IMG/VR virus record: IMGVR_UViG_3300028558_000024
Coordinates: 1-64,000 of that record
From: a virus
DNA: 64,000 bases
Direction: 5' to 3' (one strand)
Both the position numbers and the translations under genes were made by a program. The notes beneath the pieces are model-generated. The model saw only the letters and a program-made list of their open reading frames with translations. It did not search any database and had not been told where the DNA came from. Positions 6,220-43,017 of this stretch are shown here, piece by piece; positions within the stretch are counted from its first letter, which is position 1; the number at the start of each line of letters is the position of its first letter.

Positions 6220-6576
6220 ATGAGCATAGAAGAAAACACAAAAGCAGCAAAACCTCCCCTCCATTTCAGGCTTTTACAAAGCATCGCCGGTGGTGATTTG
6301 GTTATTGAAACGCGGGCGCTTGAAGAAGAGCTCAAAGAAACTAAAAAACGAATTGCTTTCCATGAAGAGGAATTCTTGAGGGAAGAAGCAGGACGGATTG
6401 AACAGCTGCAAAGATTCAACAAACTATCCGAAGCAGTTGCGGTGATGTTGATTCATGAGCCTTCATACAAAACGGAACACGACGAGGCAGCCGAAGCTTT
6501 CAATCGGGTTCTGATTACGTATCAAGAATTGAATAACTATTCGCCAATCGTCGAAAAAGAGGCGACAGCAGAATGA
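6220..6576 (+). CDS. Helical hypothetical protein, 118 aa
   Basis: Residues 30-70 form a charged coiled-coil helix (ALEEELKETKKRIAFHEEEF), and the rest is also helical. Its end overlaps the methyltransferase start by 4 bases (ATGA), suggesting coupled translation. No family recognised. Confidence 0.55.
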   Translation: MSIEENTKAAKPPLHFRLLQSIAGGDLVIETRALEEELKETKKRIAFHEEEFLREEAGRIEQLQRFNKLSEAVAVMLIHEPSYKTEHDEAAEAFNRVLITYQELNNYSPIVEKEATAE

Positions 6577-8243
6577 GACAACTATCTTTGGTTGATGAAC
6601 TCGTAATTGATTTGTTTGCCGGCGGTGGAGGTGCTTCTCTCGGCATCGAACAAGCGCTCGGCCGGTCGGTTGACTACGCCGTCAACCATGACAAAGAAGC
6701 CATTGCAATGCACGAGGCAAATCACCCTGGCACCATTCACTATCAGTCCGACGTTTTTGAAGTTGATCCTCGTGAGGTTACTCACGGGCGTCCTGTCGGC
6801 TTGCTCTGGATGTCTCCAGATTGCAAGCACTTCAGCAAGGCAAAGGGAGCGGCACTTCTCGACAAGAAGATTAGGGGGCTCTGCTGGGTTGGGCTGAAGT
6901 GGGCTGCAATGGTTCGGCCGCGCGTCATCTTCATGGAAAACGTCGAAGAGTTTCAAACTTACGGACCACTGCTTGCAGACGGAACACCGGACCCTGATCA
7001 AAAGGGCAAGTTCTTTCTAAGTTTTCTACAGGCTTGGCGTCGACTTGGGTATCAACTCGAGCACCGTGAGCTCGTCGCTTATGAGTACGGCACGCCAACG
7101 ACCCGCAAGCGCTTCTTTCTAATTGCCCGTTGCGACGGGCAGCCGATAGTATGGCCGGCTAAAACTCATGGCAAACCTACAGACAAACGAGTCATTTCAG
7201 GCGAGTTGCTTCCATGGAGAACGGCCGCAGAGTGCATCGAATGGGGATTGCCGTCAGAGTCGATTTTTGACCGTAAAAAACCTCTCGTGGCTTCCACGAT
7301 GAGACGAATCGCTAAAGGTATTCAGAAGTACGTCATTGAGGCTAAAGAGCCGTTCATTGTCACATGCAACCACGGCGGCGAAGGCTTCAGAGGCAACGGC
7401 ATCAATCAGCCATTCAAGACGGTTACATCGGCACGAGACGCACATGGGCTGGTAGTCCCGACGTTAATTCAAACGGGATGGGGAGAACGAAACGGACAAT
7501 CACCCAGAGTGCCAGGACTTGAAAAGCCCCATGGTGTCGTAATGGCAGAGGGTATTAAGACCGCCCTGGTCTGTTATCACCTGTCGCACTTCCGCGATGC
7601 CCCAGGCGGAAAACCTCGAGACGTTTCCCTTGATGCTCCGACGCCGGCAATAACCGCGGGCGGAATTACGCTCTCGCTGCAGGCAGCAAACCTAATCAAG
7701 CAGTACTCAGGCAACTACGATGCCGGGGGAGTTGGCGCAAATGAACCTTTCCACACAGTTACAGAGAAAGATCATCATCGATTGGTGTCTGCGAATCTCG
7801 TTCGAATGTTCGGAACCAGCAACGGTGCATCGTGCGTTGAGCCGCTTGGAACCATCTGCACTCAAGGTGGCGGCAAAAGCTACCTGGTCGAATCTTTTCT
7901 GCAAACCTATAACGGCAACGGCGGCACTCATTCGATCAGCGATCCAATGAACACAGTAACAACGCGTGACAGATTGTCGTTGATTTCACTGGCCGGTATT
8001 CACTTTCAGATTGACGACATTCTTATGCGGATGCTAAAGCCTCGCGAATTATTCAGAGCTCAAGGGTTTCCCGACAGCTACATCATTGATCCATTGATTC
8101 CACGCGGCAAGAAGGGTGAACTAAAGGCACTGCCTCAATCCGCCCAGGTGCGAATGTGTGGGAATTCGGTTCCTCCACAATTTTCACATGCGCTAGTCGC
8201 GGCAAATTATCGAGAGACAAGAACGGCACGAAAGAGAGCTTAA
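6573..8243 (+). CDS. DNA cytosine-5 methyltransferase
   Basis: The 556-aa protein carries the ordered C5-methyltransferase motifs: I (DLFAGGGGASLGIEQ, residues 13-27), IV with catalytic Cys 84 in SPDCKHFS, VI (MENVEEF), VIII (TTRKRFFLIA), and C-terminal IX/X (FRAQGFPDSY, then MCGNSVPPQFSHAL). Motif IV is PDC rather than PC, a variant seen in a phage-typical C5 subfamily. Between VIII and IX there is a long insert (about residues 260-470) with repeated 'N-Q/E-P-F-x-T-V-T' elements, likely the target-recognition region. Probable role: self-methylation of phage DNA against host restriction. No cognate endonuclease is nearby. Confidence 0.93.
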   Translation: MRQLSLVDELVIDLFAGGGGASLGIEQALGRSVDYAVNHDKEAIAMHEANHPGTIHYQSDVFEVDPREVTHGRPVGLLWMSPDCKHFSKAKGAALLDKKIRGLCWVGLKWAAMVRPRVIFMENVEEFQTYGPLLADGTPDPDQKGKFFLSFLQAWRRLGYQLEHRELVAYEYGTPTTRKRFFLIARCDGQPIVWPAKTHGKPTDKRVISGELLPWRTAAECIEWGLPSESIFDRKKPLVASTMRRIAKGIQKYVIEAKEPFIVTCNHGGEGFRGNGINQPFKTVTSARDAHGLVVPTLIQTGWGERNGQSPRVPGLEKPHGVVMAEGIKTALVCYHLSHFRDAPGGKPRDVSLDAPTPAITAGGITLSLQAANLIKQYSGNYDAGGVGANEPFHTVTEKDHHRLVSANLVRMFGTSNGASCVEPLGTICTQGGGKSYLVESFLQTYNGNGGTHSISDPMNTVTTRDRLSLISLAGIHFQIDDILMRMLKPRELFRAQGFPDSYIIDPLIPRGKKGELKALPQSAQVRMCGNSVPPQFSHALVAANYRETRTARKRA

Positions 8244-28519: not shown

Positions 28520-29791
28520 TTGAAGAAAGAAGTATTGGGCGAACATCTAGCAATCAAGCCACGTTTAGTGAGTGAGCTTATTCCCTATGCCAGAAACGCG
28601 AAAAATCACCCCGAGGAACAAATTTCCAAAATTGCTGCCAGTATAAAAGAATTTGGCTTCAATAATCCCGTTGCTGTCGATGGTGATAACGGCATAATCG
28701 CCGGCCATGGCCGTGTTATGGCAGCGCAGAAACTTGGACTTAAAACTGTTCCGACCGTTGAACTGTCGCACTTATCCGAGACGCAAAAACGCGCATATAT
28801 CATCGCTGATAATAAGACCGCAGAATCAGACTGGCTGGGCGAAATGCTCTCTCTGGAAATGAAAGAACTCGCTCTTGAAGACGATTTTGACATGTCTCTT
28901 TTAGGATTCGACAAAGACGAATTAGGCGAATTCCTCAACTACAAAACCTCTGAATTGCCGGCAGGTGGATTGACTGATGAAGACGAAGAGCCGCCACCGC
29001 CTGAAGATCCAGTTACAAAACTGGGGGATGTTTGGATTCTCGGAAATCACCGTCTAATGTGTGGTGATTCAACGCAAATCGATCAGGTTGAAGTTTTGCT
29101 CGACGGCGAAAAGGCTGACATCACCTTTACAGATCCGCCCTATGGCGTTGCATATACCGGAGGCGCCAAGAAGCGAGAAGCATTAGCCAACGATGAGCGG
29201 GGCACCGTTATTTATGACGAAGTGCTCCCAGTGATAGCTTTGGTAACGAAGAAGGGCGCACCACTTTACCTTTGGTATGCTGATGTGGTATTAGCAGCCG
29301 CAGCCGCAGCCGCAGCCGCAGCCGGTTACGAAATTAAGGCTCAAATTGCTTGGGTAAAAAATAATGCTCAATTCGTCACGTCGGCGCATTACAAGGGCAA
29401 GCACGAGCTTTGTATGTATGCTCACCAGAAAGGCGAGCGGGCTCCTTGGTATGGTCCGAACAATGAAGTCACCGTTTGGAATGTTGATCGCGCAAACAAG
29501 AACGAATATCACCCGACGCAAAAGCCTGTTGCCCTTTCAGAAAAGGCATTAACCAATTCTTCGAAGACTGGCGATATTGTCTTAGATCTTTTTGGCGGAT
29601 CTGGCTCAACAATGATCGGAGCTGAAAAGATTGGCCGTCATGCTCGCCTTATGGAATTGCAGCCAACCTATTGCGACGTCATCGTCAAACGATGGCAAGA
29701 ATTCACCGGCAAACAAGCCACCCTCGAACTTGATGGATTGACGTTTAATCAGTACTCGAAAGAGAGAAAGTCTTTGTCTAAAAAGGCTTAA
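28520..29791 (+). CDS. ParB-like nuclease domain fused to DNA methyltransferase
   Basis: TTG start. Residues 10-130 form a ParB/Srx-like domain (LIPYARNAKNHPEEQISKI, GIIAGHGRVMAAQKLG, IIADNKTAESDW). Residues 165-423 form an amino-methyltransferase with catalytic motif TDPPYGVAYTGG, a YHPTQKPVAL turn and the SAM-binding DLFGGSGSTMIGAEKIGR. This two-domain layout is common in phages and prophages, where it methylates N6-adenine or N4-cytosine. The helix after the YLWYADVV strand holds an uninterrupted alanine run coded by a GCAGCC repeat. Confidence 0.9.
   Translation: MKKEVLGEHLAIKPRLVSELIPYARNAKNHPEEQISKIAASIKEFGFNNPVAVDGDNGIIAGHGRVMAAQKLGLKTVPTVELSHLSETQKRAYIIADNKTAESDWLGEMLSLEMKELALEDDFDMSLLGFDKDELGEFLNYKTSELPAGGLTDEDEEPPPPEDPVTKLGDVWILGNHRLMCGDSTQIDQVEVLLDGEKADITFTDPPYGVAYTGGAKKREALANDERGTVIYDEVLPVIALVTKKGAPLYLWYADVVLAAAAAAAAAAGYEIKAQIAWVKNNAQFVTSAHYKGKHELCMYAHQKGERAPWYGPNNEVTVWNVDRANKNEYHPTQKPVALSEKALTNSSKTGDIVLDLFGGSGSTMIGAEKIGRHARLMELQPTYCDVIVKRWQEFTGKQATLELDGLTFNQYSKERKSLSKKA
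29294..29323 (+). repeat. Hexanucleotide repeat (GCAGCC)5 inside methyltransferase gene
   Basis: Five exact GCAGCC units encode ten alanines in the ParB-methyltransferase. Length changes would stay in frame and would only lengthen or shorten the helix. Confidence 0.95.
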
Positions 29792-29994: not shown

Positions 29995-30570
29995 ATGCCG
30001 AAGAAGAAACTCCCTGCAAAAACATTGGAAGGCACGATTGCTCGAGAGTCGAAGAAATCGTCCGACGTCTTTAATCCAGAGACTCTAACCGCGATCCAAG
30101 TCCTTGCCGCGTGCTGTTTCACGGACAAGGAAATTGCTTTAGAGCTTGGAATGAGCGTTCAAAAGCTGGCCGAGAACAAGAAAAAATATCAAGCGTTTGC
30201 CGAAGCCGTTGAACTTGGTCGAATGAAGGCAAAGAAAAAATGGGGTAAAGCCTTACTTCGAAAAATCGATGAAGGCGATATGCAGGCGATCAAATTCTAC
30301 GGAACTCACGTTTTGAAGATGTCGGCGCCAAGGGCGGACGAAGACGCCGGGAAAGGAAGCACGACAAATATTGTCGTTTTCTCCCCTGAAGACATGCAAA
30401 AAGACGCTTGGCAAAAAATGGTTGAAGAAGCGAAGAAGCGCGCAACTGAAGCAGAGCCACAGCCAGAAGAAGAAAAGCCGGAATGGATGCAAGGCGACAA
30501 CGTCATTGATCTGCCGGCAATAACTTTAAACCCAGCATCAAGGGAGATTCCGCAAAGTGGAACTTCCTAA
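29995..30570 (+). CDS. Terminase small subunit-like protein, 191 aa
   Basis: A helix-turn-helix segment (LTAIQVLAACCFTDKEIALELGMSVQKLAENKKKY, residues 29-65) is followed by helices, including AKKKWGKALLRKIDEGDMQAIKFY. This matches the 'WKRAL.+....GD..A..WYL' pattern of HTH-type small terminases. It overlaps the large-subunit start by 14 bases. The small subunit recognises phage DNA and recruits the large subunit. Confidence 0.75.
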   Translation: MPKKKLPAKTLEGTIARESKKSSDVFNPETLTAIQVLAACCFTDKEIALELGMSVQKLAENKKKYQAFAEAVELGRMKAKKKWGKALLRKIDEGDMQAIKFYGTHVLKMSAPRADEDAGKGSTTNIVVFSPEDMQKDAWQKMVEEAKKRATEAEPQPEEEKPEWMQGDNVIDLPAITLNPASREIPQSGTS

Positions 30571-33049
30571 GATCGATTCATCAAATGTGGCGCCATTTGA
30601 AGTAAAGCCGCAGCCAGGCCCGCAACTGTTTTTAGTTACCTGTCCCTACCAGGACATCTTTTTTGGCGGCCAGCGTGGTGGCGGGAAAGCTCAAACGCTT
30701 GACTCTGTGGTGCATACGCCGTTTGGACCGAAACGAATGGGCGACATAAAGTTGGGCGATCAGGTCTGCAATCCCGAGGGTGGAATCGCCAATGTAATCG
30801 CAATTCATCCTCAACCAAAGCAGCAAATCTACAAAGTAACTATGGCTGACGGTGCGACGACTCGCGTCACCGGTGGGCACATTTGGCTTTCGCGGATTGT
30901 CGGGCAGAAACTCAAAGCGAAAAGGCGATGGATGCACGTTTCTCGTTATTTGTATGAGGGAAGAGATTATCTCAACTGGAAGCTCTTCACGACGCTTCAA
31001 CTTAAGGAATGGATCGCCAAAGGACCAGCGAGCCACAACAGCAGACTGCCAGTCTTGCCTTTGCCACAACCGTTGACCTATACCGTGAGTGGACGGAACC
31101 CCGCCAAAATTGATCCTTACATTCTTGGTTTGATCATTGGAGATGGGCATTGCGGTGACACCGGTATTGGCATCACTTCTGCCGATAAAGAGATTGGAGA
31201 CATGCTACTCCAACTGGGCTTTGTTGAAAACCGGAAGCCCGGAAATGCAGCATCAACCTATTTAGCTCGAGGGGAAATATTTCAAACCTTAAGAACAGCC
31301 CTTCAGCAGCTCGATCTGTACGGCTGTAAATCCAATAGCAAATTCATCCCCCGCCAGTTTCTCTACGGTTCAATTGAAAACAGGTGGGAGTTACTTCGTG
31401 GGTTGATGGATTCGGACGGTTCGGCAACTCCAGAGGGCAAGTTGAATTACTCGTCGGTGAGCAAACGCTTAGCCGACGAAGTCCGCACTTTGATTGAAGG
31501 ACTCGGTGGCTGGGCGACCATATGGGAGAAGCCAGGAAAATATAGAAACGAAGAAGGCGAAATAGTTGAATGCCAGATTTCTTACAACCTTTACATTAAG
31601 CTTCAAGACCACAGTCAAGCATTTCGGCTTAAACGAAAGAAGGAGAGAGCGGCCAAGTATTCATTCAATGGTGGCGCTGATCAATGGCGCAAAATTGTCT
31701 CCATTGAAGAAGACGGCTTTGAAGAAGCTCAGTGCATAACAGTCGATCATCCGAACGGGCTTTACCTCACAGATAATTGCATTGTCACCCACAACAGTTT
31801 CGCAGTTCTTCTCGACTTTATTTATCATGCTGCAAAATACGGCGAACACGCTGTCGGCTTGATTGTTCGTGAATCGTATAAAGAGCTTCAGGATTTCAAT
31901 GAAAAGAAAGCCATGCCAATTCTGTTTCGGCTTGGCTGGGATTGGAACGTTGGACGACAGACATGGTATGCGCCCAACGGGGCCACTCTTCGCATGGGGC
32001 ACATGGCGACTCAAAAGGACGCAAATAAGCTCCTTGGCGCCGAGCTAACCTGGTTTGCTGTTGAAGAAATTGGTAATTTTCCAAACGACAACATCGACAA
32101 GCCGGAGCCCGGATCTAACGTCGGACTCGACATGATTCGCGGATCGATGAGATCGGCTCACGGTGTACCTGTTCGCTTCCTTTGTACTGGAAATCCAGGC
32201 GGAATTGGGCATCGCTGGATCAAAGCGCGGTACGTTGATCCGGCTCCGCCGATGACACCTTTTAAAGACGAAGAAACAGGTCAGTGGCGCGTTTTCATAC
32301 CTTCTTCAACAAAAGATAATCCGATTTTGATGGAAAGCGATCCCGAGTACGTGGATCGTTTGCGTGCCGTCGGATCGAAAGCCCTGCAAAAGGCATGGAT
32401 CGAAGGCGACTGGGAAATTTCACTCAAAGGCGAGATTTTTGAACGCCCCTGGTTCGGCTGGTACGACTGGAATCCGGAAGACGCGATTATGCCTCGCATT
32501 GGCATTGGCTCCAAGTGTCCGCCGATTCATGGCCGATTTTCATCATGGGATACGGGCTGCAAAGTCGAAGAGGTTCATTCTAAGACAGCCGGACTTACCT
32601 GGGCGACTTCCGTCAATGAAATTTTCATTCTCGATATGTTTAACAAGCGAGTTCAATTTCCTGTACTCGTCGATACAGTCAAGATGTCTTCTCGAAAATG
32701 GAGACCAGAAGCAATTTGGGTCGAGGAAAGATCTTCCGGCATTCAATTGGTTCAAACATTGCGCACTGGAACACAACTCCCAATCAAGCCAGTTCAGGTC
32801 ACCCGTGACAAAGAGAGCCGAGCTCATGCCGTCAGCGCCGGATTGACGACAGGAAAAGTACTTTTGCCCTCCAAGTGTCCATGGGCTTACGATTTGTTGG
32901 AAGAGCTTTGCGCATATCCACAAAAAGGCGAAAGCGATTTAGTCGACGCTTTCACTTTGGGAATGTCTCAGATTTCTTATTCCGAAGAAAGAATCAAGAA
33001 ATTCAGGAATAGCGCAGGATACCGAAACCGCTCAATTTACGGAAGATAG
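30557..33049 (+). CDS. terL: Terminase large subunit interrupted by an intein
   Basis: GTG start; 830 aa before splicing, 461 after. The N-extein ends FFGGQRGGGK (residues 35-44) and the C-extein begins SFAVLL, so the intein splits the Walker A P-loop (GGQRGGGK|S). After the intein come TWFAVEEIGNFP (Walker B/catalytic acid), VRFLCTGNPGG and the nuclease domain with SSWDTGCK, a WVEERSSG acidic strand and a final DLVDAFTLG. The protein packages DNA through the portal and cuts concatemers. Splicing must occur before the ATPase can work. Confidence 0.95.
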   Translation: MELPKIDSSNVAPFEVKPQPGPQLFLVTCPYQDIFFGGQRGGGKAQTLDSVVHTPFGPKRMGDIKLGDQVCNPEGGIANVIAIHPQPKQQIYKVTMADGATTRVTGGHIWLSRIVGQKLKAKRRWMHVSRYLYEGRDYLNWKLFTTLQLKEWIAKGPASHNSRLPVLPLPQPLTYTVSGRNPAKIDPYILGLIIGDGHCGDTGIGITSADKEIGDMLLQLGFVENRKPGNAASTYLARGEIFQTLRTALQQLDLYGCKSNSKFIPRQFLYGSIENRWELLRGLMDSDGSATPEGKLNYSSVSKRLADEVRTLIEGLGGWATIWEKPGKYRNEEGEIVECQISYNLYIKLQDHSQAFRLKRKKERAAKYSFNGGADQWRKIVSIEEDGFEEAQCITVDHPNGLYLTDNCIVTHNSFAVLLDFIYHAAKYGEHAVGLIVRESYKELQDFNEKKAMPILFRLGWDWNVGRQTWYAPNGATLRMGHMATQKDANKLLGAELTWFAVEEIGNFPNDNIDKPEPGSNVGLDMIRGSMRSAHGVPVRFLCTGNPGGIGHRWIKARYVDPAPPMTPFKDEETGQWRVFIPSSTKDNPILMESDPEYVDRLRAVGSKALQKAWIEGDWEISLKGEIFERPWFGWYDWNPEDAIMPRIGIGSKCPPIHGRFSSWDTGCKVEEVHSKTAGLTWATSVNEIFILDMFNKRVQFPVLVDTVKMSSRKWRPEAIWVEERSSGIQLVQTLRTGTQLPIKPVQVTRDKESRAHAVSAGLTTGKVLLPSKCPWAYDLLEELCAYPQKGESDLVDAFTLGMSQISYSEERIKKFRNSAGYRNRSIYGR
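30689..31795 (+). other. Class 3 intein with LAGLIDADG homing endonuclease, 369 aa
   Basis: The intein runs from Ala (codon 30689) to Asn (codon 31793) before +1 Ser. It lacks the usual first-residue nucleophile. Block A is SVVHTPFGPKRMGDIKLGD. Block B is TGGHIW, with Trp two residues after His (B:12). Block F is AQCITVDHPNG with Cys at F:4. Block G is CIVTHN with Thr at G:5. These Trp, Cys and Thr residues are the WCT signature of class 3 inteins. Between blocks B and F lie two LAGLIDADG motifs, ILGLIIGDG (about residue 190 of the precursor) and LLRGLMDSDG (about residue 280). Confidence 0.9.
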
Positions 33050-34693
33050 ATGCTCAAGTATTTGCAAGAAACACTCAAGAACGACAGACCGGCTTGGCAA
33101 AATGCTGATGATCGCTTTTGTGATTTAGATTTACGCGATAAGTTTCTTTCCTCTCAAGCTTACGACCACCTGAAACACAACTTTTCGCAGGAAGAGGATA
33201 GCAATCAGGATTTCATACCTATATATAAGCGTCGGCCTTCAGTTATCTACCCTTATGCTTCGGCAATTTCGGCTCTCGTTGCTCGCAAAACCTTTGGCGG
33301 ACGTCATGCGCCCAGATTGACTCACGATAAAGACGAAGTTCGAATGAAGGTTGAAAGGCTTCTCCAAGAGGCCAAGTTTAGCCGACTCATGATCCAAATA
33401 GCCAAATGGGCGTCTGTTGGTTCGATGGGCGTTACGTACAAAATTTTAGGCGAAGGCGACAAAGGCAAAATCATTGCAACGCCATGGAGAGCGAAATATT
33501 GCACTCCCAGATATGACAAGATGCAGAATTTGAAGTCTTTGCGGATTGCCTATCCGACCTGCGGTTATGAGTTTTTGGCTCGAGGCTGGGACAAAGACAT
33601 TAAAGGCGATCCAATTATTGCAACCGGAAATTATTGGCGGATTGTCGATCAGACTAAAGAGTACGAACGTTCTTATACGCCAATTTTCGAAAGTATGTGG
33701 AAGCCGTCTGATGGCGATAGTCTTTTGCAATTCAATGAGAAGGAAGACGAGGTCAAACACAATCTCGGCATTGTTCAAGCGCATTGGTTCACCAATTCAA
33801 CAACCGGCTCACTTCCAGACGGCGAATGCTTGTTTGGTGCCGCTCTTCCCATTTGCATAGATATTGACTTCACTTTATCTTCGCTTGGCCGGGCCATCAG
33901 ATACAACGCCTCGCCCCAGGTCGTCACAATTGGCGAAATGGTTGACGGCAATGGCGGAGCAGCCGAGGACGGCAAGCCCAAGGCTCGTTCACCACATATG
34001 ATGCTGATGTTTTACGCCGGCGAGAAAGACGCGGGCGGCGGAACCGTTAATGCTGGCGATGCCAAACTTCTTGAAATGACCGGGGAAGGCATCAAAATTG
34101 GTTTGGAGTATGTCCAGTTTCTACGGAAATTGGCCCAAGAATCAACTGCAGCGATCGTAAAAGATCCCGATCATGCCGGAACATTGATCACCGGGGCTGC
34201 CATGGATTCTTTTGATGATAACTTCATCGACCTTATCCAAGATCTTCGCTGCTGCCTTGGCGATGACGGGACATTGCAACTCACTCGCCAAATGTGTCTT
34301 GTTGCAATTGCAGCCAAACACCCAATCATGGCGGGCGTTAACGTCGAGGATATTGACGGTCTTAAATATCAATGGCCCAAAGTTCACGAGCTGACGCCTC
34401 AAGACCTACAACAACTTGTCGCTTCTTTTGTTCAAGCAATTACCGGGCCGACTGCCAAGGGCGCCATGGGCGGCTTGGTTCAGTTACCGGGCTGGAAGCC
34501 TCTAATCGATCCCGAGGACGCCCGTAATTACATCTACGACAATTGCGATTTTCCAGTTGAGTCGACTGACTATATAGAGGATGGGATTTTACCTGACGGC
34601 GAGAAGGATGACGGCAAAACCGCCATAGACACGCCTGATGAGTCTGATGTTTTGCCACCAAATGAAAAATTGAAAAAAGGAGTTACAGGCTAA
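33050..34693 (+). CDS. Portal protein, 547 aa
   Basis: Directly follows the terminase. Size, position and features fit a portal: N-terminal YLQETLKNDRPAWQNADDRF, a beta-rich middle, a long stem helix (TGEGIKIGLEYVQFLRKLAQE) and a helical C-terminus with PQDLQQLVASFVQAI. Portals form the dodecameric ring at the capsid vertex through which DNA passes. Sequence assignment is by context and layout. Confidence 0.75.
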   Translation: MLKYLQETLKNDRPAWQNADDRFCDLDLRDKFLSSQAYDHLKHNFSQEEDSNQDFIPIYKRRPSVIYPYASAISALVARKTFGGRHAPRLTHDKDEVRMKVERLLQEAKFSRLMIQIAKWASVGSMGVTYKILGEGDKGKIIATPWRAKYCTPRYDKMQNLKSLRIAYPTCGYEFLARGWDKDIKGDPIIATGNYWRIVDQTKEYERSYTPIFESMWKPSDGDSLLQFNEKEDEVKHNLGIVQAHWFTNSTTGSLPDGECLFGAALPICIDIDFTLSSLGRAIRYNASPQVVTIGEMVDGNGGAAEDGKPKARSPHMMLMFYAGEKDAGGGTVNAGDAKLLEMTGEGIKIGLEYVQFLRKLAQESTAAIVKDPDHAGTLITGAAMDSFDDNFIDLIQDLRCCLGDDGTLQLTRQMCLVAIAAKHPIMAGVNVEDIDGLKYQWPKVHELTPQDLQQLVASFVQAITGPTAKGAMGGLVQLPGWKPLIDPEDARNYIYDNCDFPVESTDYIEDGILPDGEKDDGKTAIDTPDESDVLPPNEKLKKGVTG

Positions 34694-35046
34694 TGGCTAA
34701 TGGCGACAGTATTTATTTAGTCAACGGTGTTGCGCCGACAACCTATAAAGGTTGGAAAGCGCTTGACGCATCGAGTGCAACCTCTGGCGATTCGGGCTGG
34801 CTTGATCCGTTGCCCTATTCGAAATTTTCGCTTGAAGTGACGGGAATCGCTGCCGGCGACAAAGTCAAACTCTGGGGCACGAATAAAGAATTTCCGCTGT
34901 CGAGTGATGCGGGCCAATTGATTGGCGCCGAATTGACAGCAAATGGATATACGCAATTCACCGGCTCTTATGCCAGATTGCGTGTTACACAGAGCGCTAA
35001 TGCTGGCGGTGGTTCTGTCACTGCCGTTTTATTGGCGACAAAATAA
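34693..35046 (+). CDS. Beta-rich virion protein, 117 aa
   Basis: TAATG-coupled to the portal gene. It is all-beta (SGDSGWLDPLPYSKFSLEVTG, then YTQFTGSYARLRVTQSANAGGG). A similar protein is encoded at 50,843 between the spike and the gp25-like gene. Probably a head decoration or structural accessory; exact role unknown. Confidence 0.6.
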   Translation: MANGDSIYLVNGVAPTTYKGWKALDASSATSGDSGWLDPLPYSKFSLEVTGIAAGDKVKLWGTNKEFPLSSDAGQLIGAELTANGYTQFTGSYARLRVTQSANAGGGSVTAVLLATK

Positions 35047-35063
35047 GGAGAATCAAACCAACC

Positions 35064-35735
35064 ATGTCAGACGAAACCCCTAAAAACGTCGAAGACCCCA
35101 AGCAAGAAGATCCGTCCAAAAACCAAGATCCTCCAAAGAAGGAAGATAAATCCGCTGGCGACGACAAGCGAAAAGCTTGGAGTACGGACGATTATGAACA
35201 TGAACTGTCGAAAGTTCGAGGCGAAGCAGCCGAAAAGAGAAAAGCTCTTAGCGACTTGCAAAAGAAACTCGATGCTCACGAAGAAGAAAAGAGCAAAGCT
35301 GAAACAGACCGACTGAAAGCTGAAGGCAAATTCAAAGAAGCTGCCGAGAAAGCCGAGAAGGATCTCCAAGACTACAAGAAGATAGCCGAACAACGCGCAA
35401 TCAAAGCTGAAGCGAAAGCCGCGGCAATTGCTGCCGGCATGAATCCCAATGCGGCCAAGTTTCTTGATACGACAAATGTCAAATATGACGATGCCGGAGA
35501 GCTTTCCGGAATCGAAGAAGCCATTGCTCAAATGAAGAAGGATCTGCCTGAAGTTTTCAAAAAGGAATCCGACACTTCCAAAGACGTAAAACCAACTGGC
35601 TCGGAGAAAGATGATCCGCCTCCCGCCAAAAAGGGAACAACTCCAACCGCAATGGCAACTGACTCGAAAGGCAATTTCCTGATCTCCGACAAAGATCTCG
35701 ATAAAGCGATCAAGGAAATGGCCAAAAAAATATAG
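35064..35735 (+). CDS. Capsid scaffolding protein, 223 aa
   Basis: ATG at 35064 after AAGGAG. Highly charged Lys/Glu-rich coiled coil at residues 45-130 (SKVRGEAAEKRKALSDLQKK...), with a short C-terminal amphipathic helix (ISDKDLDKAIKEMAKKI) of the kind that contacts the capsid. Position just before the major capsid gene is typical. Confidence 0.8.
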   Translation: MSDETPKNVEDPKQEDPSKNQDPPKKEDKSAGDDKRKAWSTDDYEHELSKVRGEAAEKRKALSDLQKKLDAHEEEKSKAETDRLKAEGKFKEAAEKAEKDLQDYKKIAEQRAIKAEAKAAAIAAGMNPNAAKFLDTTNVKYDDAGELSGIEEAIAQMKKDLPEVFKKESDTSKDVKPTGSEKDDPPPAKKGTTPTAMATDSKGNFLISDKDLDKAIKEMAKKI

Positions 35736-35768
35736 TTGACAAAAGTCAAAGCAGCTATCAATGATTGT

Positions 35769-35800
35769 GGAGTAGGTCAGGCACCTACTCCAATCTTTTT
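35769..35800 (+). terminator. Rho-independent terminator / first CAGGC-loop hairpin
   Basis: GGAGTAGGT (35769-35777), loop CAGGC, ACCTACTCC (35783-35791), then AATCTTTTT. A perfect 9-pair stem with a T-run after the scaffold gene. A TTGACA at 35735-35740 upstream could belong to a promoter. Confidence 0.8.
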
Positions 35801-35801
35801 A

Positions 35802-35871
35802 GAGCCAGGCGCTCCGTGCGGGTTGTAACCGCAACGTAAATCTCTCAAAAACTAGTCCGGGCCAGGCGCCC
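35802..35871 (+). promoter_or_regulatory. Structured leader of the major capsid gene with two more CAGGC-loop hairpins
   Basis: GAGC-CAGGC-GCTC spans 35802-35814 and GGGC-CAGGC-GCCC spans 35859-35871. Between them TGCGG / CCGCA with a 7-base loop forms a third stem (about 35817-35833). The stems differ in sequence while the five-base loop is identical to that of the terminator, so the loop, not the stem, appears conserved. The capsid ribosome-binding site AGAGGGG follows. Confidence 0.6.
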
Positions 35872-35907
35872 TCAGTGTCACACAAGACTAAGAGGGGTTT
35901 CCTTATA

Positions 35908-37290
35908 ATGTCCGGCAATTTCCAAAATCTTCCAACAGCTCTGCAAGTAGTCATTCAACAAGGATGGCTTGAACGCAAAATTAGAGCCGCATTGCAAAAC
36001 AAACTTGCATATCGCGCTCTCGTAGAAAAAGAAACTTTCCCAACTAGAATTGGCGAAGCTTTCAAAAGAACTCGCACAGCGATGTTGCCGGCTGTCGTTA
36101 AGAAGCTCGTTCCGTCGGATATGTCCAACGCAGCTTCTTTGACCAATGGACAAACCGCGCAAACCGCTCCTGGCTATGAACAATGGGACGTAACTCTTGA
36201 AGAGCACGGCACTTTCCTTGGCTTGAACCGCAAGCAAGACAAGGTTTCTCTCGTCAATAACTACTTGAGAAATGCTGGCTTGCTGGCCAATCAATCAGCC
36301 AAGTCTCAAGAACACATGGCTCGCAATCCCTTGTTTGGCGCTTATCTGAGTGGAAACAGCTATGTTGTAACAGCATTGGGTGCAGGCACAAGCACGACCG
36401 CGCTCGTTAATGACATTCGCGGCTTCGACACTGTTTTGATTGCAAACGGCACTCTGGCAGCTACAAGCGTTTCAAATCCTTTGACTTGTTATGCAACCAA
36501 GCCGGATAACACCGTTGTCACTCTTTCGGTGACGGGCGTTGTCGCAGAAGGTACAAATCACAGCTCTGCTTCTCAGCTCTCTTCGGACGGCGTTGAACAG
36601 GGCGGAATCTCCGGCACTTTGACTTTTGCTGATGCTGGCGGCACTTTGCCGGACGGTACAGTTATCAAAGCAATCCATGGTTCAACCATTTTGCGCCCGA
36701 AAGGCAAAACTCGCACTTCAGCCTTGCTGGGCGGCGACATGCTGACTCTCTCATTGCTTTTGGATGCAAAGCTTGCACTGGAAAACAATGGCGTTTCCGG
36801 AGCAATTGATTGCGTTCTTGATCCTTCTTCATTGCGTCAACTGTATGCCGATCCTGAATTCCAGAATCTTCACACTGGCGGCAGAGCTGATACTGAAATG
36901 AATACTGGCATGATTTCAGCAATTCTCGGAATCAATTTCCGCACAACTACTGAAGCATTCCAGCAACCGGCATTCTCCGGAACCGGCGCTCACAACATTC
37001 CTGTTGCTGTCCGTAGACCAATTCTTGTCAGCGAAGGCTGCATTGTTGAATCGACTTTCGAAGCCGATACTGAACAGGAAGATCAAACCATCCATAACAT
37101 CGTCACCGTTGACGGCGTTAATTTCATCGACAGACCATCCTTGGACGTTTTCGCTCAAAACGTCACACAGGCATGGGAATGGACCGGTTGTTACAGTGTT
37201 CCACAAGACCAATCGATGACAGCGGCGATTATGCCGACTGCATCCGGCGCCCGCTACAAGCGCGCTGTGGTTATCGAGCACGCAGGCTAA
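35908..37290 (+). CDS. Major capsid protein, 460 aa
   Basis: ATG at 35908 with AGAGGGG upstream; a longer in-frame reading lacks a site. Position after scaffold, size and content (EKETFPTRIGEAFKRTR near the N-terminus, QYEQWDVTLEEHG-like segment, ending YKRAVVIEHAG) fit an HK97-type major capsid protein. An inserted beta-rich domain lies at about residues 150-255. A separate leader with hairpins suggests strong, individually controlled expression. Confidence 0.75.
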   Translation: MSGNFQNLPTALQVVIQQGWLERKIRAALQNKLAYRALVEKETFPTRIGEAFKRTRTAMLPAVVKKLVPSDMSNAASLTNGQTAQTAPGYEQWDVTLEEHGTFLGLNRKQDKVSLVNNYLRNAGLLANQSAKSQEHMARNPLFGAYLSGNSYVVTALGAGTSTTALVNDIRGFDTVLIANGTLAATSVSNPLTCYATKPDNTVVTLSVTGVVAEGTNHSSASQLSSDGVEQGGISGTLTFADAGGTLPDGTVIKAIHGSTILRPKGKTRTSALLGGDMLTLSLLLDAKLALENNGVSGAIDCVLDPSSLRQLYADPEFQNLHTGGRADTEMNTGMISAILGINFRTTTEAFQQPAFSGTGAHNIPVAVRRPILVSEGCIVESTFEADTEQEDQTIHNIVTVDGVNFIDRPSLDVFAQNVTQAWEWTGCYSVPQDQSMTAAIMPTASGARYKRAVVIEHAG

Positions 37291-37310
37291 GCCTTTCGGC
37301 GAGGGGAGTG

Positions 37311-37332
37311 AGCGGACCCGAAAGGGTCCGCT
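37311..37332 (+). terminator. GAAA-tetraloop hairpin after the major capsid gene
   Basis: AGCGGACCC (37311-37319), GAAA loop, GGGTCCGCT (37324-37332): nine perfect pairs with a GNRA tetraloop. It has no T-run, so it is more likely a processing or stability element, or a partial attenuator that keeps capsid mRNA above that of downstream genes. Confidence 0.55.
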
Positions 37333-37367
37333 TACATAATTAAGAGTTTTCTGGAGAACAAAAAACA

Positions 37368-38543
37368 ATGTCGCTGAATCCTAATGCAAGACTTCTGCCT
37401 GCTTTGAACGCTTCAACTATGGTCAATGGGCAAGTCGTTCCACTTTCTCCTTCTGATCAACTTGCATCGGACGCGAGACTTTTGGCGACCGCGACAATAA
37501 CCGTCGGGGGTTCAATTACGAACCTCGACAAATTGCGAGTAAGGATTAAATCAGGCGCTCTTGAGATTGATGTAACTGCCGCCATGACGGGCGGTGACAC
37601 TACCACTACCGCAGCGGCCAAAGTTGCAGCCGCAATCAATGCAAATGCGACTTTGCGAGATCTTGGTTATGCAGCTTCTTCGGCTGCAGCTATCGTAACT
37701 TTGACCGGTTATGGACCAATTCCAATGATTGTCGCTCTCGATTCATGGGCCGAGTCGGCTGGTTTGACTTTGACGTGCGGCGGGACGGTCACTTCCGGCG
37801 AAATGGAAATCGTCAAATTCGTTTCTGATTTGCTTCCGCTTGGATACAAATATGTCAAGGTTCTTTCAGCTTCGACAACTACTGCGCGCGCAACCGCAAT
37901 CAAAAACGCTATTAATGCTGATGTTGATCTTGCCAATGCCGCCATTACTGCAACATCTTCTTCGGCTATTGTCACAATCGACTTGAGTGCAGTTGATTCT
38001 GACGTCACCGTGACTTCTTATGCATGGCAACCTTCGGCAACCGTTACTGTCGGCGGCACGCCTGCTGATGGCAATGCGCCTATTTTGGTTTTCACTGCAA
38101 CTGGCTTGCCTGGTGGAGATACCACGATCAACTATACCGTTTCGGGATCACCGACGACAACTCAAGTCGCAACTGCCTTGGCGGGCGTCATTAACGCAAA
38201 TTCTGAACTTATTGCAGCAGGTATCACAGCCAGCCCATCAGGAGCTGTCGTGACCGTGACCTTGCCCGACAATATTGGCGGCATCGTTCTTTCCAGAACA
38301 AATGACACCACGACTTACACTTTGAGCGCTGGTCCGACTGAAACTATTGTCAAAGCCGCCGAAGCAACTGAAACTATGACAATTTCACAGGTTTTCACGG
38401 GCGGAGGCGGCCCGATTCTGCCAACCGCAGATTTCCAATACATGTACAACGGACAACCCCTGTCTTTCAGAGCTGGCTTCCCCGCGGAAGTTACAAGTGA
38501 CCTTTTGACAATGCTTCTGAGGGACGCACAACAGATCTCTTAA
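37368..38543 (+). CDS. Virion protein with three repeated small domains, 391 aa
   Basis: GGAG-preceded ATG at 37368. Three similar units of about 80-90 residues are visible at about 40-120, 140-225 and 225-325. Each has a beta-strand entry, an 'A.A..INA...L..AG..A' helix and a closing 'AIVTLT' strand pair. The C-terminus (FQYMYNGQPLSFRAGFPAEVTSDLLTMLLRDA) looks like a separate docking part. Probably a head or neck structural protein; exact role unknown. Confidence 0.6.
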   Translation: MSLNPNARLLPALNASTMVNGQVVPLSPSDQLASDARLLATATITVGGSITNLDKLRVRIKSGALEIDVTAAMTGGDTTTTAAAKVAAAINANATLRDLGYAASSAAAIVTLTGYGPIPMIVALDSWAESAGLTLTCGGTVTSGEMEIVKFVSDLLPLGYKYVKVLSASTTTARATAIKNAINADVDLANAAITATSSSAIVTIDLSAVDSDVTVTSYAWQPSATVTVGGTPADGNAPILVFTATGLPGGDTTINYTVSGSPTTTQVATALAGVINANSELIAAGITASPSGAVVTVTLPDNIGGIVLSRTNDTTTYTLSAGPTETIVKAAEATETMTISQVFTGGGGPILPTADFQYMYNGQPLSFRAGFPAEVTSDLLTMLLRDAQQIS

Positions 38544-38558
38544 GGAGTTCATTCCAAA

Positions 38559-38882
38559 ATGGCAACCAATCCCCCCGCCGAAACAACAACCTCAACCAAA
38601 ACAGCCGCTCAAGAAAAACTTGAAGAATTGAAGCGGAATGCAATTGCAAAAAACCAACCGGCCGCAGCCGACAAAATTGAAGCCTACAGAATTTCAGCAG
38701 ATTGCAGAACTGCTTTGCACGGTTCGATTGTTTCTTACAAGAAAGACGACATTGTTTCCGATCCTGGAATGATCGTTCAATTGAAAGCGCAAGGAATAGA
38801 CATGCTTCCGATTGAAGCGGCTTTCCATGAATGCCCAAATTGCAAATCCAGGTTCGCGGCGGCCACAGCAGAAAGGAAGTAA
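38559..38882 (+). CDS. Small virion-region protein with zinc knuckle, 107 aa
   Basis: Helical N-terminus followed by a compact beta part (TALHGSIVSYKKDDIVSDPGMI) and a C-terminal FHECPNCKSRF knuckle. It has TAA-ATG spacing to the next gene. Role unknown. Confidence 0.55.
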   Translation: MATNPPAETTTSTKTAAQEKLEELKRNAIAKNQPAAADKIEAYRISADCRTALHGSIVSYKKDDIVSDPGMIVQLKAQGIDMLPIEAAFHECPNCKSRFAAATAERK

Positions 38883-39668
38883 ATGCTCACCGACATGGAA
38901 CGAGTCGCAATCAGAAGTCACCTCGGGTATCCGCCCGTTGGTGCTCCGCAGATTGCGCCGGGCCGCGTCGGGCGTTATTTGCTCACGAATATCGATCTTT
39001 CCGTTTATGACGACTCTTTCAATGCTTTGGAGTTTCGTTTAAACCGTTTGCGTGCAGCAGAAGAAGTCCTTTTAACTGGCGCTGCATATGGGGCAATTTA
39101 TTTCGGAAACCTTCAGCCGTTCACGACAGCTGATTCAATCACGATAACGATTACTCAAGGGACGGCGATTGATAAGGAATTGACTTACACCGCCTTAAAT
39201 GGCGAGAAGCTCATTCCGTTCATGACAAGGATTTCAACAGCAATCAATCAAGACGTTGATTTGACGGCCGCCGGCTTTACTGGCTCCTTCCCAAATGACG
39301 GCTCAATGAGTGAATTCGCGATCTTTGCTCCCGTGGAATTTGAAATTGCTATCACCACGACCGGCAATATGCTGGCTACTTTGAGCGGCTTTGGCAAGCT
39401 GCCGAATATGCACTTTGATTCTTGTTGCGATTCGGGCGAAGTCGTTTATGGACTGATCAATATCTGTGATGCTTTGGAAAATGCGATTGCAGGCTCATCT
39501 AAACAACTTGGCTTTGCCAGAACAGGCGATGTCTACTTTAATGGCCGTGTTTTGAGAGAAAGAGAAAAACTCTACCAAAGATATAGGAAGCGTTTGGCCG
39601 AATTTCTGAAAGTGCCATTCTTTGCAAGTAGCACGGGCGGCGGTGGGGCTGGAAGGTTTGTCTGCTAA
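38883..39668 (+). CDS. Head-tail connector-like protein, 261 aa
   Basis: MLTDMERVAIRSHLGYPPV at the N-terminus and a helical C-terminus (RVLREREKLYQRYRKRLAEFL) with an inserted beta domain at about residues 75-165. The helical shell resembles adaptor/connector proteins that bind under the portal. Assigned mainly by position. Confidence 0.5.
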   Translation: MLTDMERVAIRSHLGYPPVGAPQIAPGRVGRYLLTNIDLSVYDDSFNALEFRLNRLRAAEEVLLTGAAYGAIYFGNLQPFTTADSITITITQGTAIDKELTYTALNGEKLIPFMTRISTAINQDVDLTAAGFTGSFPNDGSMSEFAIFAPVEFEIAITTTGNMLATLSGFGKLPNMHFDSCCDSGEVVYGLINICDALENAIAGSSKQLGFARTGDVYFNGRVLREREKLYQRYRKRLAEFLKVPFFASSTGGGGAGRFVC

Positions 39669-40456
39669 TGTGCAATTCAATGGCGCGAGAGATACAAGCG
39701 CTCAGGAATTGCGCTAAAGGTCTGGAAGCCTCAATGAGTGGGGTTCCTTTTGACGTTTATCGCCTCAAATCGACGGTGAGCGGAGACTTCATCCAGGACG
39801 CAACCCGGATCGCTCAAAACGTCATGATTTCCTATACGGTGAAAACCTCTAAGGATGTCGAAGGTTCGATGGAAGTCCCGAAATGGCAGGAGCTTGTTGT
39901 TTATGCAGTCACAGGCAATTTTGCGCAATTTCATGTCGGTGACGTGTTTGTCTGCCGTGACACTGTTGCTGGGGATAACCATATACGGTTACCGGGTACG
40001 CGAGAACTTAACGCATTTGCGCTGGCCTCGGACGCCTTTCTAAAACTGTCGCTCGGAGCTCGGATAAACACCCAAATTTCAATCAGTCGTCAGTCAAAGA
40101 CAACCAATGATGAAGGATTCTTTGATCCGACGGCTAAAAATTCCCAAGTTCTCAAAATCAACAACGGCCGCTGTCAGTTGATGCCTTCCGAATCGAAGCC
40201 GCACATAATACCGGCCGGGCTTGTAGCTGCACGCGGAACCTATGGTGAAAGAGACTTTGACGGCGTTCCCGCAATGGAAAGGAAGTCTTCTTGGATTTGC
40301 TTCGTTCCGCCTTTGCCGGGATTGAAATTTAGAGAAGGCGATCGCATCCAAGGACAAGACGGAGCCCTTTATAAAGTTGTCGTCGCATATACGGAAGAGG
40401 TTGGCTTTATTGGTTCTCAGTTGTTTTTAGAACGCGAAAACGCGCAACCCGGTTAA
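39668..40456 (+). CDS. Neck/tail completion-region protein, 262 aa
   Basis: TAATG-coupled to the previous gene. Beta-rich with two SH3-like features (FHVGDVFVCRD, KFREGDRIQGQDGALYKVVV), consistent with a head-completion or tail-adaptor protein. No named family recognised. Confidence 0.5.
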   Translation: MCNSMAREIQALRNCAKGLEASMSGVPFDVYRLKSTVSGDFIQDATRIAQNVMISYTVKTSKDVEGSMEVPKWQELVVYAVTGNFAQFHVGDVFVCRDTVAGDNHIRLPGTRELNAFALASDAFLKLSLGARINTQISISRQSKTTNDEGFFDPTAKNSQVLKINNGRCQLMPSESKPHIIPAGLVAARGTYGERDFDGVPAMERKSSWICFVPPLPGLKFREGDRIQGQDGALYKVVVAYTEEVGFIGSQLFLERENAQPG

Positions 40457-40461
40457 ACGAA

Positions 40462-41352
40462 ATGGCGACAGTAACTCAAATCATGCAAAAAGTTAAGGCC
40501 GTCATCGAGGCGGCTGTCGCTGATTTGTTGATTGACGGGAATCCGGCCGACATAACCGTCGGACTTGGCTGGCCGGATGTTGAAAGATTGCAAGATGTCG
40601 CCCGCGGCAAGATGTTGATCTCGGTCCATGAGCGCTTAACTGGAAAGGTTCCGCGCAGGTACTTGAACCAAACCCAGCAATTCACCCCGCTTCCTTGCGG
40701 AATCGCGGCTGTTTTGTCAAATGATGTAATCGGCCCGACTGGCTCAGAAACTTTGACTTTGTCATTCTCGGTCGGCTCAAGTGCCGTCAACCAATATGAC
40801 GGCGTCGGACTTGGCGCGGCATTTGGTTTTCTCGAGTCTGGCGCGACTGTGATTGCGAGCACCGGCAATTCTCTTCATGACGTTGCATCGGCGTTGGCAA
40901 CAAACATTAATGCGACCGATGTTTTGTCTGATTGGATTTCCGCCTCGGCAACTGGCGCTGTCGTTACTTTGACAAATCTCTTATCCGCGCCTTTGAAAAT
41001 TGCCAAAGGCGTCGGGAACAGAACTATCAGAACGAAGGAAACCGGCAGAGAACAAGCCGATCTTCAAATAACGCTCTGGGCCGACTCACAAAAGTCGCGT
41101 TATTCCATTGGGGATATCATCCAACCTCTTTTGAACGACCTTGAAGATCAAGGAAGAGTCCAAATCAATGCCGGCGACCACGCAAACTTTGGCTATAACG
41201 GCTCAATGAATAATGATGCCGACGTCCAAAAAAACACTTATCGAAGGGAATTTTTGCTTAGTGCTGAATATTCAGTTAGAAAAACAGACTTCGCATACCC
41301 TGTCTTGGCTCAAATTCACACTTATAACAATCCAAGAAATCCCGCGACTTAA
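40462..41352 (+). CDS. Tail terminator-like protein with inserted domain, 296 aa
   Basis: The N-terminal helix (IMQKVKAVIEAAVADLL) and the C-terminal 'YSIGDIIQPLLNDLEDQ...' with a final strand (NTYRREFLLSAEYSV) resemble tail-terminator proteins. An insertion at about residues 90-190 is of the same kind as in neighbouring proteins. The sheath gene begins 90 bases later. Confidence 0.5.
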   Translation: MATVTQIMQKVKAVIEAAVADLLIDGNPADITVGLGWPDVERLQDVARGKMLISVHERLTGKVPRRYLNQTQQFTPLPCGIAAVLSNDVIGPTGSETLTLSFSVGSSAVNQYDGVGLGAAFGFLESGATVIASTGNSLHDVASALATNINATDVLSDWISASATGAVVTLTNLLSAPLKIAKGVGNRTIRTKETGREQADLQITLWADSQKSRYSIGDIIQPLLNDLEDQGRVQINAGDHANFGYNGSMNNDADVQKNTYRREFLLSAEYSVRKTDFAYPVLAQIHTYNNPRNPAT

Positions 41353-41442
41353 CTTGACGCGCCAAAACTTTGTTTTGCATCGCCCAAAATCTCCGCTTAC
41401 GTTTGATATCGAGGGCAGAGATATCAGTTTGGAGATCCGCAA

Positions 41443-43017
41443 GTGGCACAGATTATTCAGTCGAGTTCTTTCAATCCGATCAATCTTCGGGCAAACGGTC
41501 TTTATATCGTTCGCCGTCCACCTTCGGGATTTAAAGCCGCAGTCGCAACCGATGTAATTGGATTTGTCGGTGGAGCTGATTGGGGTAAACGAAATCAACC
41601 AACTCTAGTTGGTGATGTGCGAGCTTACGGCCGCGCATTCGGCCCCTTGAATGCAGCGTCTTTGACTGATGTTCATGACATGGCGATTGCAATCAATGTC
41701 GCCTTCTCCCAATCCGCTGGCGGAAGCCCTATAGAGGCGCTCTGTGTTGCCGTAGATGACGGCACGGCTGATTATGCAACGATTGCCCTTGTTGACACTT
41801 CCGGCTCTCCTAAAGCCGGTGGATCGCTCACCGCAAGATGCGTCGGGACTGCTGGTAACGCAATTACCGTCAATTTTGCAGCTGGCACAGTCACCAATAC
41901 CGTAAACGTCAAGATTTTTGCCTTCGATGGCGCCGATTCTGAAATTTACGAAAACCTTCCTTCTGCCGGAGCTGGTGTTTTCTGGGCTTCCTTGAAACAA
42001 GCCGTCAATTTCGGAAATACTTTGCGTCCACCTTCTAAGCTCGTTCGCTTCGTTGACGGAGTTGACGTTGCAACCGCAATCACTCCAGCGCTTGGCACCT
42101 TTGATTTGACCGGTGGATTGTCTGGCCGTTCCGGAATCGACTCAGCCGACTTGCTTGGTTCTGATTCCTCAGTTCCAAAAACCGGCGCCTATTCGTTGCG
42201 TTCGCAAGATCCTTCTCCGTCTGTCGTTGTCCTTTGCGGCAACTATGACAATACAATCTATTCAAGCCTTAAGACTCTCGCTGAGTCCGAAGGCTGGATT
42301 CAATTGCTCGATTTTAGCGCTGGTACTTCAAGCGCAACTGCAAAGGCTAACAAGAAAACCTATGCCGTTGACTCGTTCAACGTCGGCTATTGCTGGAACC
42401 AAACCTACATTTACGACTCAGTCAACGGACTCACCAGGCTTCTGCCGGCGTCTTACACGATTGGCGGCAGGATTGTTTCATTGCAACCTCAAGAGTCCTG
42501 CGGAAACAAGGAAGTCTTCGGTATTGTCGGAACAGAAAGAAACGATCCTTCAACTGGCGATGTTCCATTCAGTGAATCGGAAGAAGGAGATTTGGAGCAA
42601 TCGGGAATCCTCTTCATCAAGAGAGGTATTCCACGCAATGCCAACATCTTTGGGATCAAGCACGGGATGTCATCGCTCACTGGTTTCAATACTTCAAACC
42701 TTGCGCATACCCGCATAATCACATTCTTGTTTAAGACCGTTGAGTCTGCTGTCGGCCAGTTTGTCGAAGAAATTCAAACCACTGATGTCGATGATCAAAC
42801 CCGTTTGGGCGTCGAAACGGCTGTTAATTCAGTTCTGATCGAAGCTCAGAAAAATAGACTGGTCGATCAATTCAAGGTCCAATGCGATCTCGACAACAAC
42901 AGCCCAGCAACAATCGCCGCTGGTCAACTCAACTACAAGACCGAGATCCGCCCAATTGGACATGCCCGATTCATCATCTGGGATTTCACCTATGACGTGA
43001 ACGCCCAGGTCGCCTAA
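41443..43017 (+). CDS. Tail sheath protein, 524 aa
   Basis: GTG start preceded by GGAG. The C-terminal region has the sheath-like segments (RLGVETAVNSVLIEAQKNRLVDQFKV and the terminal HARFIIWDFTYDVNAQ), and the middle carries a 'P.PSVVVLCGNYDN' strand. Size and position before the tube gene support the call. A contractile sheath makes this a myovirus. Confidence 0.75.
   Translation: MAQIIQSSSFNPINLRANGLYIVRRPPSGFKAAVATDVIGFVGGADWGKRNQPTLVGDVRAYGRAFGPLNAASLTDVHDMAIAINVAFSQSAGGSPIEALCVAVDDGTADYATIALVDTSGSPKAGGSLTARCVGTAGNAITVNFAAGTVTNTVNVKIFAFDGADSEIYENLPSAGAGVFWASLKQAVNFGNTLRPPSKLVRFVDGVDVATAITPALGTFDLTGGLSGRSGIDSADLLGSDSSVPKTGAYSLRSQDPSPSVVVLCGNYDNTIYSSLKTLAESEGWIQLLDFSAGTSSATAKANKKTYAVDSFNVGYCWNQTYIYDSVNGLTRLLPASYTIGGRIVSLQPQESCGNKEVFGIVGTERNDPSTGDVPFSESEEGDLEQSGILFIKRGIPRNANIFGIKHGMSSLTGFNTSNLAHTRIITFLFKTVESAVGQFVEEIQTTDVDDQTRLGVETAVNSVLIEAQKNRLVDQFKVQCDLDNNSPATIAAGQLNYKTEIRPIGHARFIIWDFTYDVNAQVA

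Follow-up and report, generated by a model that had tools for sequence, protein, structure and literature searches.

A predicted class 3 homing intein that splits the Walker A motif in the terminase large subunit of a tailed phage

An insertion that splits the ATP-binding motif of a phage packaging enzyme raises the question of whether it times packaging or is a selfish element that its host gene tolerates. The case described here is a 369-residue insertion in the terminase large subunit (TerL) gene of a virus, located in a stretch of 64,000 nucleotides (the window) that forms positions 1 to 64,000 of the 77,097-base IMG/VR record IMGVR_UViG_3300028558_000024. A preliminary description made from the window alone had read the insertion as a class 3 intein, a kind it called uncommon, that might time packaging by disabling the packaging ATPase until splicing. 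The insertion is very probably a mobile class 3 intein in the TerL Walker A motif of a tailed phage, an efficiently spliced selfish homing element and not a demonstrated packaging switch.

Intein boundaries and splicing residues

The terL gene is a single open frame of 830 codons with a GTG start (30557-33049, plus strand, as are all features of the gene given below), and its translation is an interrupted TerL precursor. The intein (30689-31795, Ala1 to Asn369) occupies residues 45-413 of this frame, starts with AQTLDS and finishes with CIVTHN, which is followed by the extein sequence SFAVLLDF. It divides the Walker A motif between Lys and Ser, giving GGQRGGGK-AQTL...IVTHN-SFAV (hyphens mark the junctions). 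The N-extein of 44 residues (30557-30688) ends in GGQRGGGK, and the first residue of the C-extein (31796-33049, 417 residues plus stop codon), Ser+1, is the Walker A Ser; the C-extein holds the remaining ATPase and an RNase H-like nuclease domain. The C-terminal part of the precursor matches PHROG terminase large subunit families, Pfam Terminase_6C and NCBIfam TIGR01630; no solved structure for the C-extein was found by sequence search. Taken together, the two extein ends make up a terminase large subunit with a Walker A ATPase and an RNase H-like nuclease, in which the Walker A motif is whole only after the exteins are joined.

TerL relatives were sought with the C-extein as query, and the closest were 37-39 % identical. 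The relatives L007, L008, L009, L010, L011 and L014 are contiguous at GG(A/G)RGGGK-(T/S), for example GGARGGGK-TFGL. Because these intein-free proteins run unbroken across the homologous Walker A motif, both splice junctions are fixed to the residue. The preliminary description had placed the insertion at GGQRGGGK-S and had proposed a search for such relatives, which confirmed the boundary; the contrary outcome that it had named, a different boundary that would make the first residue a Cys/Ser nucleophile, was looked for in the empty-site alignment and no such boundary exists there.

Class 3 inteins are defined by a position 1 without a nucleophile, the WCT triplet (Trp at B:12, Cys at F:4, Thr at G:5), Ser or Thr at +1, and an obligatory Cys at F:4 (PMC3196547; PMC5222942). 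Position 1 of the window intein is Ala, not Cys, Ser or Thr, and in alignments A1 and A2 the triplet is formed by Trp66 (30884-30886), Cys349 (31733-31735) and Thr367 (31787-31789). The general catalytic residues are His64 (B:10, 30878-30880), His368 (G:6) and Asn369 (G:7) (together 31790-31795), and Ser+1, encoded by the next codon. Blocks A and B form the N-terminal half of the HINT splicing domain (30689-30898), which aligns to the class 3 DnaB inteins 6bs8 and 6rix, and blocks F and G lie at 31733-31795. The first alignment sets the window intein beside 15 phage inteins from different hosts; Trp66, Cys349, His64, His368 and Asn369 do not vary in it, and 15 of the 16 sequences keep Thr367. 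An AlphaFold model of the intein (predicted local distance difference test score 91.5, predicted template modelling score 0.90) has the HINT fold: its splicing part matches the class 3 DnaB inteins 6bs8, 6riy and 6rix, the last two with template modelling scores, taken over the target, that reach 0.82. As far as sequence can define it, every mark of class 3 is present in the window intein.

A chance match is excluded by the full-length alignment of the closest inteins (E about 1e-94 to 1e-89) together with the recovery of 30689-31795 from the 77-kb record at E = 2.6e-120 by a family profile that includes the window intein as one of its rows. Profile A2 found no second intein of the same family in the record, even at E 10, and a search of the record with PF14890 gave no match because that profile scores the window intein below its cutoff.

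Relatives and class of the intein

In a maximum-likelihood tree of 57 rows, nine of them class 1 inteins, the window intein falls among the class 3 inteins, nearest to the TerL inteins L037, L038 and L044. Eight of the nine class 1 rows are split from class 3 with a Shimodaira-Hasegawa-like approximate likelihood ratio test (SH-aLRT) support of 99, and one change explains the class 3 label on the tree. The three nearest inteins, all from IMG/VR, are likewise class 3, are inserted in the Walker A motif of TerL-like proteins, and are 36-41 % identical to the window intein over its full length.

TerL inteins at the P-loop (TerL1-a) and TerL inteins of class 3 have both been published before (Kelley et al. 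2016, PMC5050341). These mycobacteriophage inteins share the TerL Walker A insertion with the window intein, TerL1-a at Lys-Thr, but the terminase family and hosts differ and the +1 residue is Thr there and Ser in the window. The intein of Mycobacterium phage Traaww1 (L029) has Ala1 and the WCT triplet, with THN-T after GK, and is only about 28 % identical. Parabacteroides phage PF672P2 (L018, OP172820.1) has an intein of the same site (GGQPGGGK-A...THN-T), class and endonuclease architecture, whereas its host protein is terminase-like and annotated as hypothetical, the extein is divergent and the inteins are 33 % identical. Among isolated phages, Thiohalocapsa phage MD04 (L020), Salmonella 66FD (L031) and Escherichia Ec_Makalu_002 (L034) likewise have a terminase or terminase-like protein that is interrupted at GK-(S/T) by a class 3 intein. 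Class 3 chemistry and the HINT fold are shared with Msm DnaBi1 of Mycobacterium smegmatis and M. chimaera DnaB1 (6bs8, 6rix), and in DnaB P-loop inteins the Walker A Ser likewise doubles as the +1 nucleophile (PMC6195587). The DnaB inteins 6bs8 and 6rix are mini-inteins without an endonuclease, whereas the window intein has one and lies in TerL; it also lacks the B-block Asp of the DnaB inteins.

The intein was matched by 762 phage records, of which 550 cover 80 % or more of it, and confirmed candidates numbered at least 596 on viral contigs and at least 588 in genomes. In at least 11 further intein loci the C-extein shows significant similarity to the window TerL. Once loci from IMG/VR and GTDB genomes were included, the set came to 172 non-redundant inteins; most of the relatives were recovered by seeding on the second LAGLIDADG motif of a class 3 profile. 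The insertion site is a GK-(S/T) P-loop in 160 of 171 inteins, position 1 is Ala in 124 of the 172, only 12 begin with Ser or Cys, and His B:10 is kept in all 172. Contrary to the preliminary description, class 3 therefore accounts for many of the inteins at P-loops of phages and bacteria, a familiar insertion hotspot, and the window intein, which is of an ordinary kind, adds one case to the class 3 P-loop TerL inteins already known. It is a clean example of the class 3 inteins with an endonuclease that occupy such P-loops, a large set of which most lack annotation, and the 172 sequences could serve questions on the origin of class 3 splicing and on intein jumps between unrelated terminases.

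The full WCT triplet was found in 168 of the 172 inteins (Trp B:12 in 170, Cys F:4 in 171, Thr G:5 in 170), a biased census, since the relatives came from a class 3 profile. This bias weighs against the reading as a mobile class 3 intein, as do a Pfam Intein_splicing match that falls below its cutoff (E 0.0047) and a support of only 64 for the full split between class 3 and class 1 when the divergent L030 is included. That the boundary was misjudged and the intein belongs to class 1 or class 2 has next to no probability. Class 2 inteins also lack an N-terminal nucleophile, but they have been described only from KlbA (PMC3196547); the boundary is fixed by the empty-site relatives, the triplet at B:12, F:4 and G:5 is complete, and in the phylogeny, a check called for in the preliminary description, the intein falls with class 3.

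Some inteins depart from the usual pattern. The full triplet occurs with Cys1 in L075 and L094, and with Ser1 in L022, L042, L057, L072, L106, L113, L120, L180 and L188; such inteins combine class 1 and class 3 nucleophiles and may help to trace how class 3 splicing began. The intein at a GK-T site in the annotated terminase large subunit of Lactococcus phage AM4 (L033) has Cys1 and keeps Cys F:4 and Thr G:5, with Ile in place of Trp B:12, and it forms a long branch among the class 3 inteins. The terminase-like L003 (660-3059) has an intein at GK-T with Ala1, Cys F:4, Thr G:5 and Asn where Trp B:12 is expected. L017 has an apparent class 1 mini-intein, with Cys1 and without an endonuclease, near the end of its 1-1377 frame, in the TerL nuclease domain and not the ATPase domain.

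Homing, splicing and the timing of packaging

The intein contains a LAGLIDADG domain (31109-31615, about residues 141-309), on which Pfam LAGLIDADG_3 and Hom_end both score above cutoff. The first motif, LGLIIGDGH (about residues 146-154), contains Asp152, and the second, LLRGLMDSDG (about residues 235-244), contains Asp241 and Asp243; all three Asp residues are invariant in a 40-sequence alignment. The AlphaFold model matches PI-SceI over its whole length (E 1e-16) and I-DmoI over the nuclease part. With two LAGLIDADG helices, acidic catalytic residues and a matching fold, the domain is a predicted homing endonuclease that would cut the intein-free site, in keeping with the two motifs already noticed in the preliminary description.

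Intein and extein similarities do not run in parallel. The inteins of the window and L037 are 41 % identical and their terminases 23 %; for L038 the intein is 40 % identical and the terminases have no significant match, and the L044 extein is 25 % identical. The closest TerL exteins (L007-L011) carry no intein. This mismatch and the intein-free closest exteins are consistent with horizontal spread, in which the intein moves from one terminase to a divergent one by way of the Walker A site that both have. The overlapping contigs L001 and L002 carry the same intein, with the last 150 residues unchanged in L002; no population variation was seen inside the intein in L002, and the differences in L002 and L006 fall outside it. 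GC content and codon positions gave no signs of recent acquisition (GC content at third codon positions 0.51 versus 0.48).

The class 3 mechanism has been demonstrated in P-loop-site relatives such as Msm DnaB-1 (PMC5222942, PMC6195587), and by analogy the window TerL precursor would be spliced by the same chemistry. Cys349, aided by His64, Trp66 and Thr367, would attack the Lys44-Ala1 peptide bond, the acyl group would move to Ser+1, Asn369 would cyclise, and the exteins would join to restore GGQRGGGKS. Because the insertion lies inside the Walker A motif, TerL should be without normal ATP binding until it is spliced, and an ATP-binding TerL would arise only afterwards. The dependence of the motif on splicing had been recognised in the preliminary description and follows from the anatomy of the site; loss of ATP binding before splicing has also been pointed out for TerL multimers (PMC5050341) and DnaB (PMC6195587). 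At the DNA level, the LAGLIDADG domain would cut the P-loop region of an intein-free terL and the intein gene would be copied in by homing, with the conserved Walker A codons as a target common to divergent terminases. Such a selfish element would be tolerated because it splices well, and an intein that homes and splices efficiently accounts for everything observed.

The intein could instead have decayed and splice poorly or not at all, leaving terL dead or complemented by other phages, as in the Arthrobacter Arth_1007 pseudogene, and class 3 intein pseudogenes are known (PMC3196547). This is extremely improbable, as the catalytic residues of the splicing and nuclease domains are all intact in an open frame, other overlapping contigs carry the intein in an open frame, and a non-splicing intein in an essential packaging gene should be lethal.

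Timing of packaging needs slow or conditional splicing. The intein would then act as a conditional switch whose delayed or redox-controlled splicing holds back the active packaging ATPase until a late stage of infection or until conditions are favourable. Oxidation inhibits the related P-loop class 3 intein Msm DnaBi1 (PMC6195587), and the window intein has a Cys at G:2 (Cys364), a thin lead that it shares with others (15 of the 172 sequences, the window included). However, the redox partner Cys48 of Msm DnaBi1 corresponds to Ile47/Tyr48 in the window intein, and homing without any benefit explains the wide, patchy distribution at the same DNA site. A switch is accordingly regarded as very unlikely, and a particular form of it, in which conditional splicing through, for example, a Cys349-Cys364 redox pair keeps the packaging motor from assembling before the late phase of infection, as less likely still. 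The timing role put forward in the preliminary description is speculation with no supporting feature in the intein.

Genomic neighbourhood and other features of the window

The start of terL overlaps the 3' end of an upstream terminase small subunit-like open reading frame (29995-30570, plus strand, phrog_309). Major head and tail sheath genes downstream of terL indicate a contractile-tailed phage. Searched at the nucleotide level, the packaging region matched no phage record. The portal, major capsid and sheath proteins (33050-43017) are 26-33 % identical to those of Komagataeibacter phage phiKX1, which was considered as a source of an empty site and rejected, its terminase having no detectable relation to the window TerL.

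In a C5-cytosine methyltransferase of 556 residues (6573-8243), the conserved parts are separated by an extra segment of about 240 residues with repeated TVT...H-like motifs. A second intein was suspected there and rejected, the extra segment having no intein blocks by eye. A perfect GCAGCC hexamer repeat of 5.2 copies (29294-29324) encodes a poly-Ala tract in a ParB-N6/N4 methyltransferase open reading frame (28520-29791). The window opens with about eight 27-bp tandem repeats (1-226) of consensus CAGCCGGACATAAGGCACATGCATCGA.
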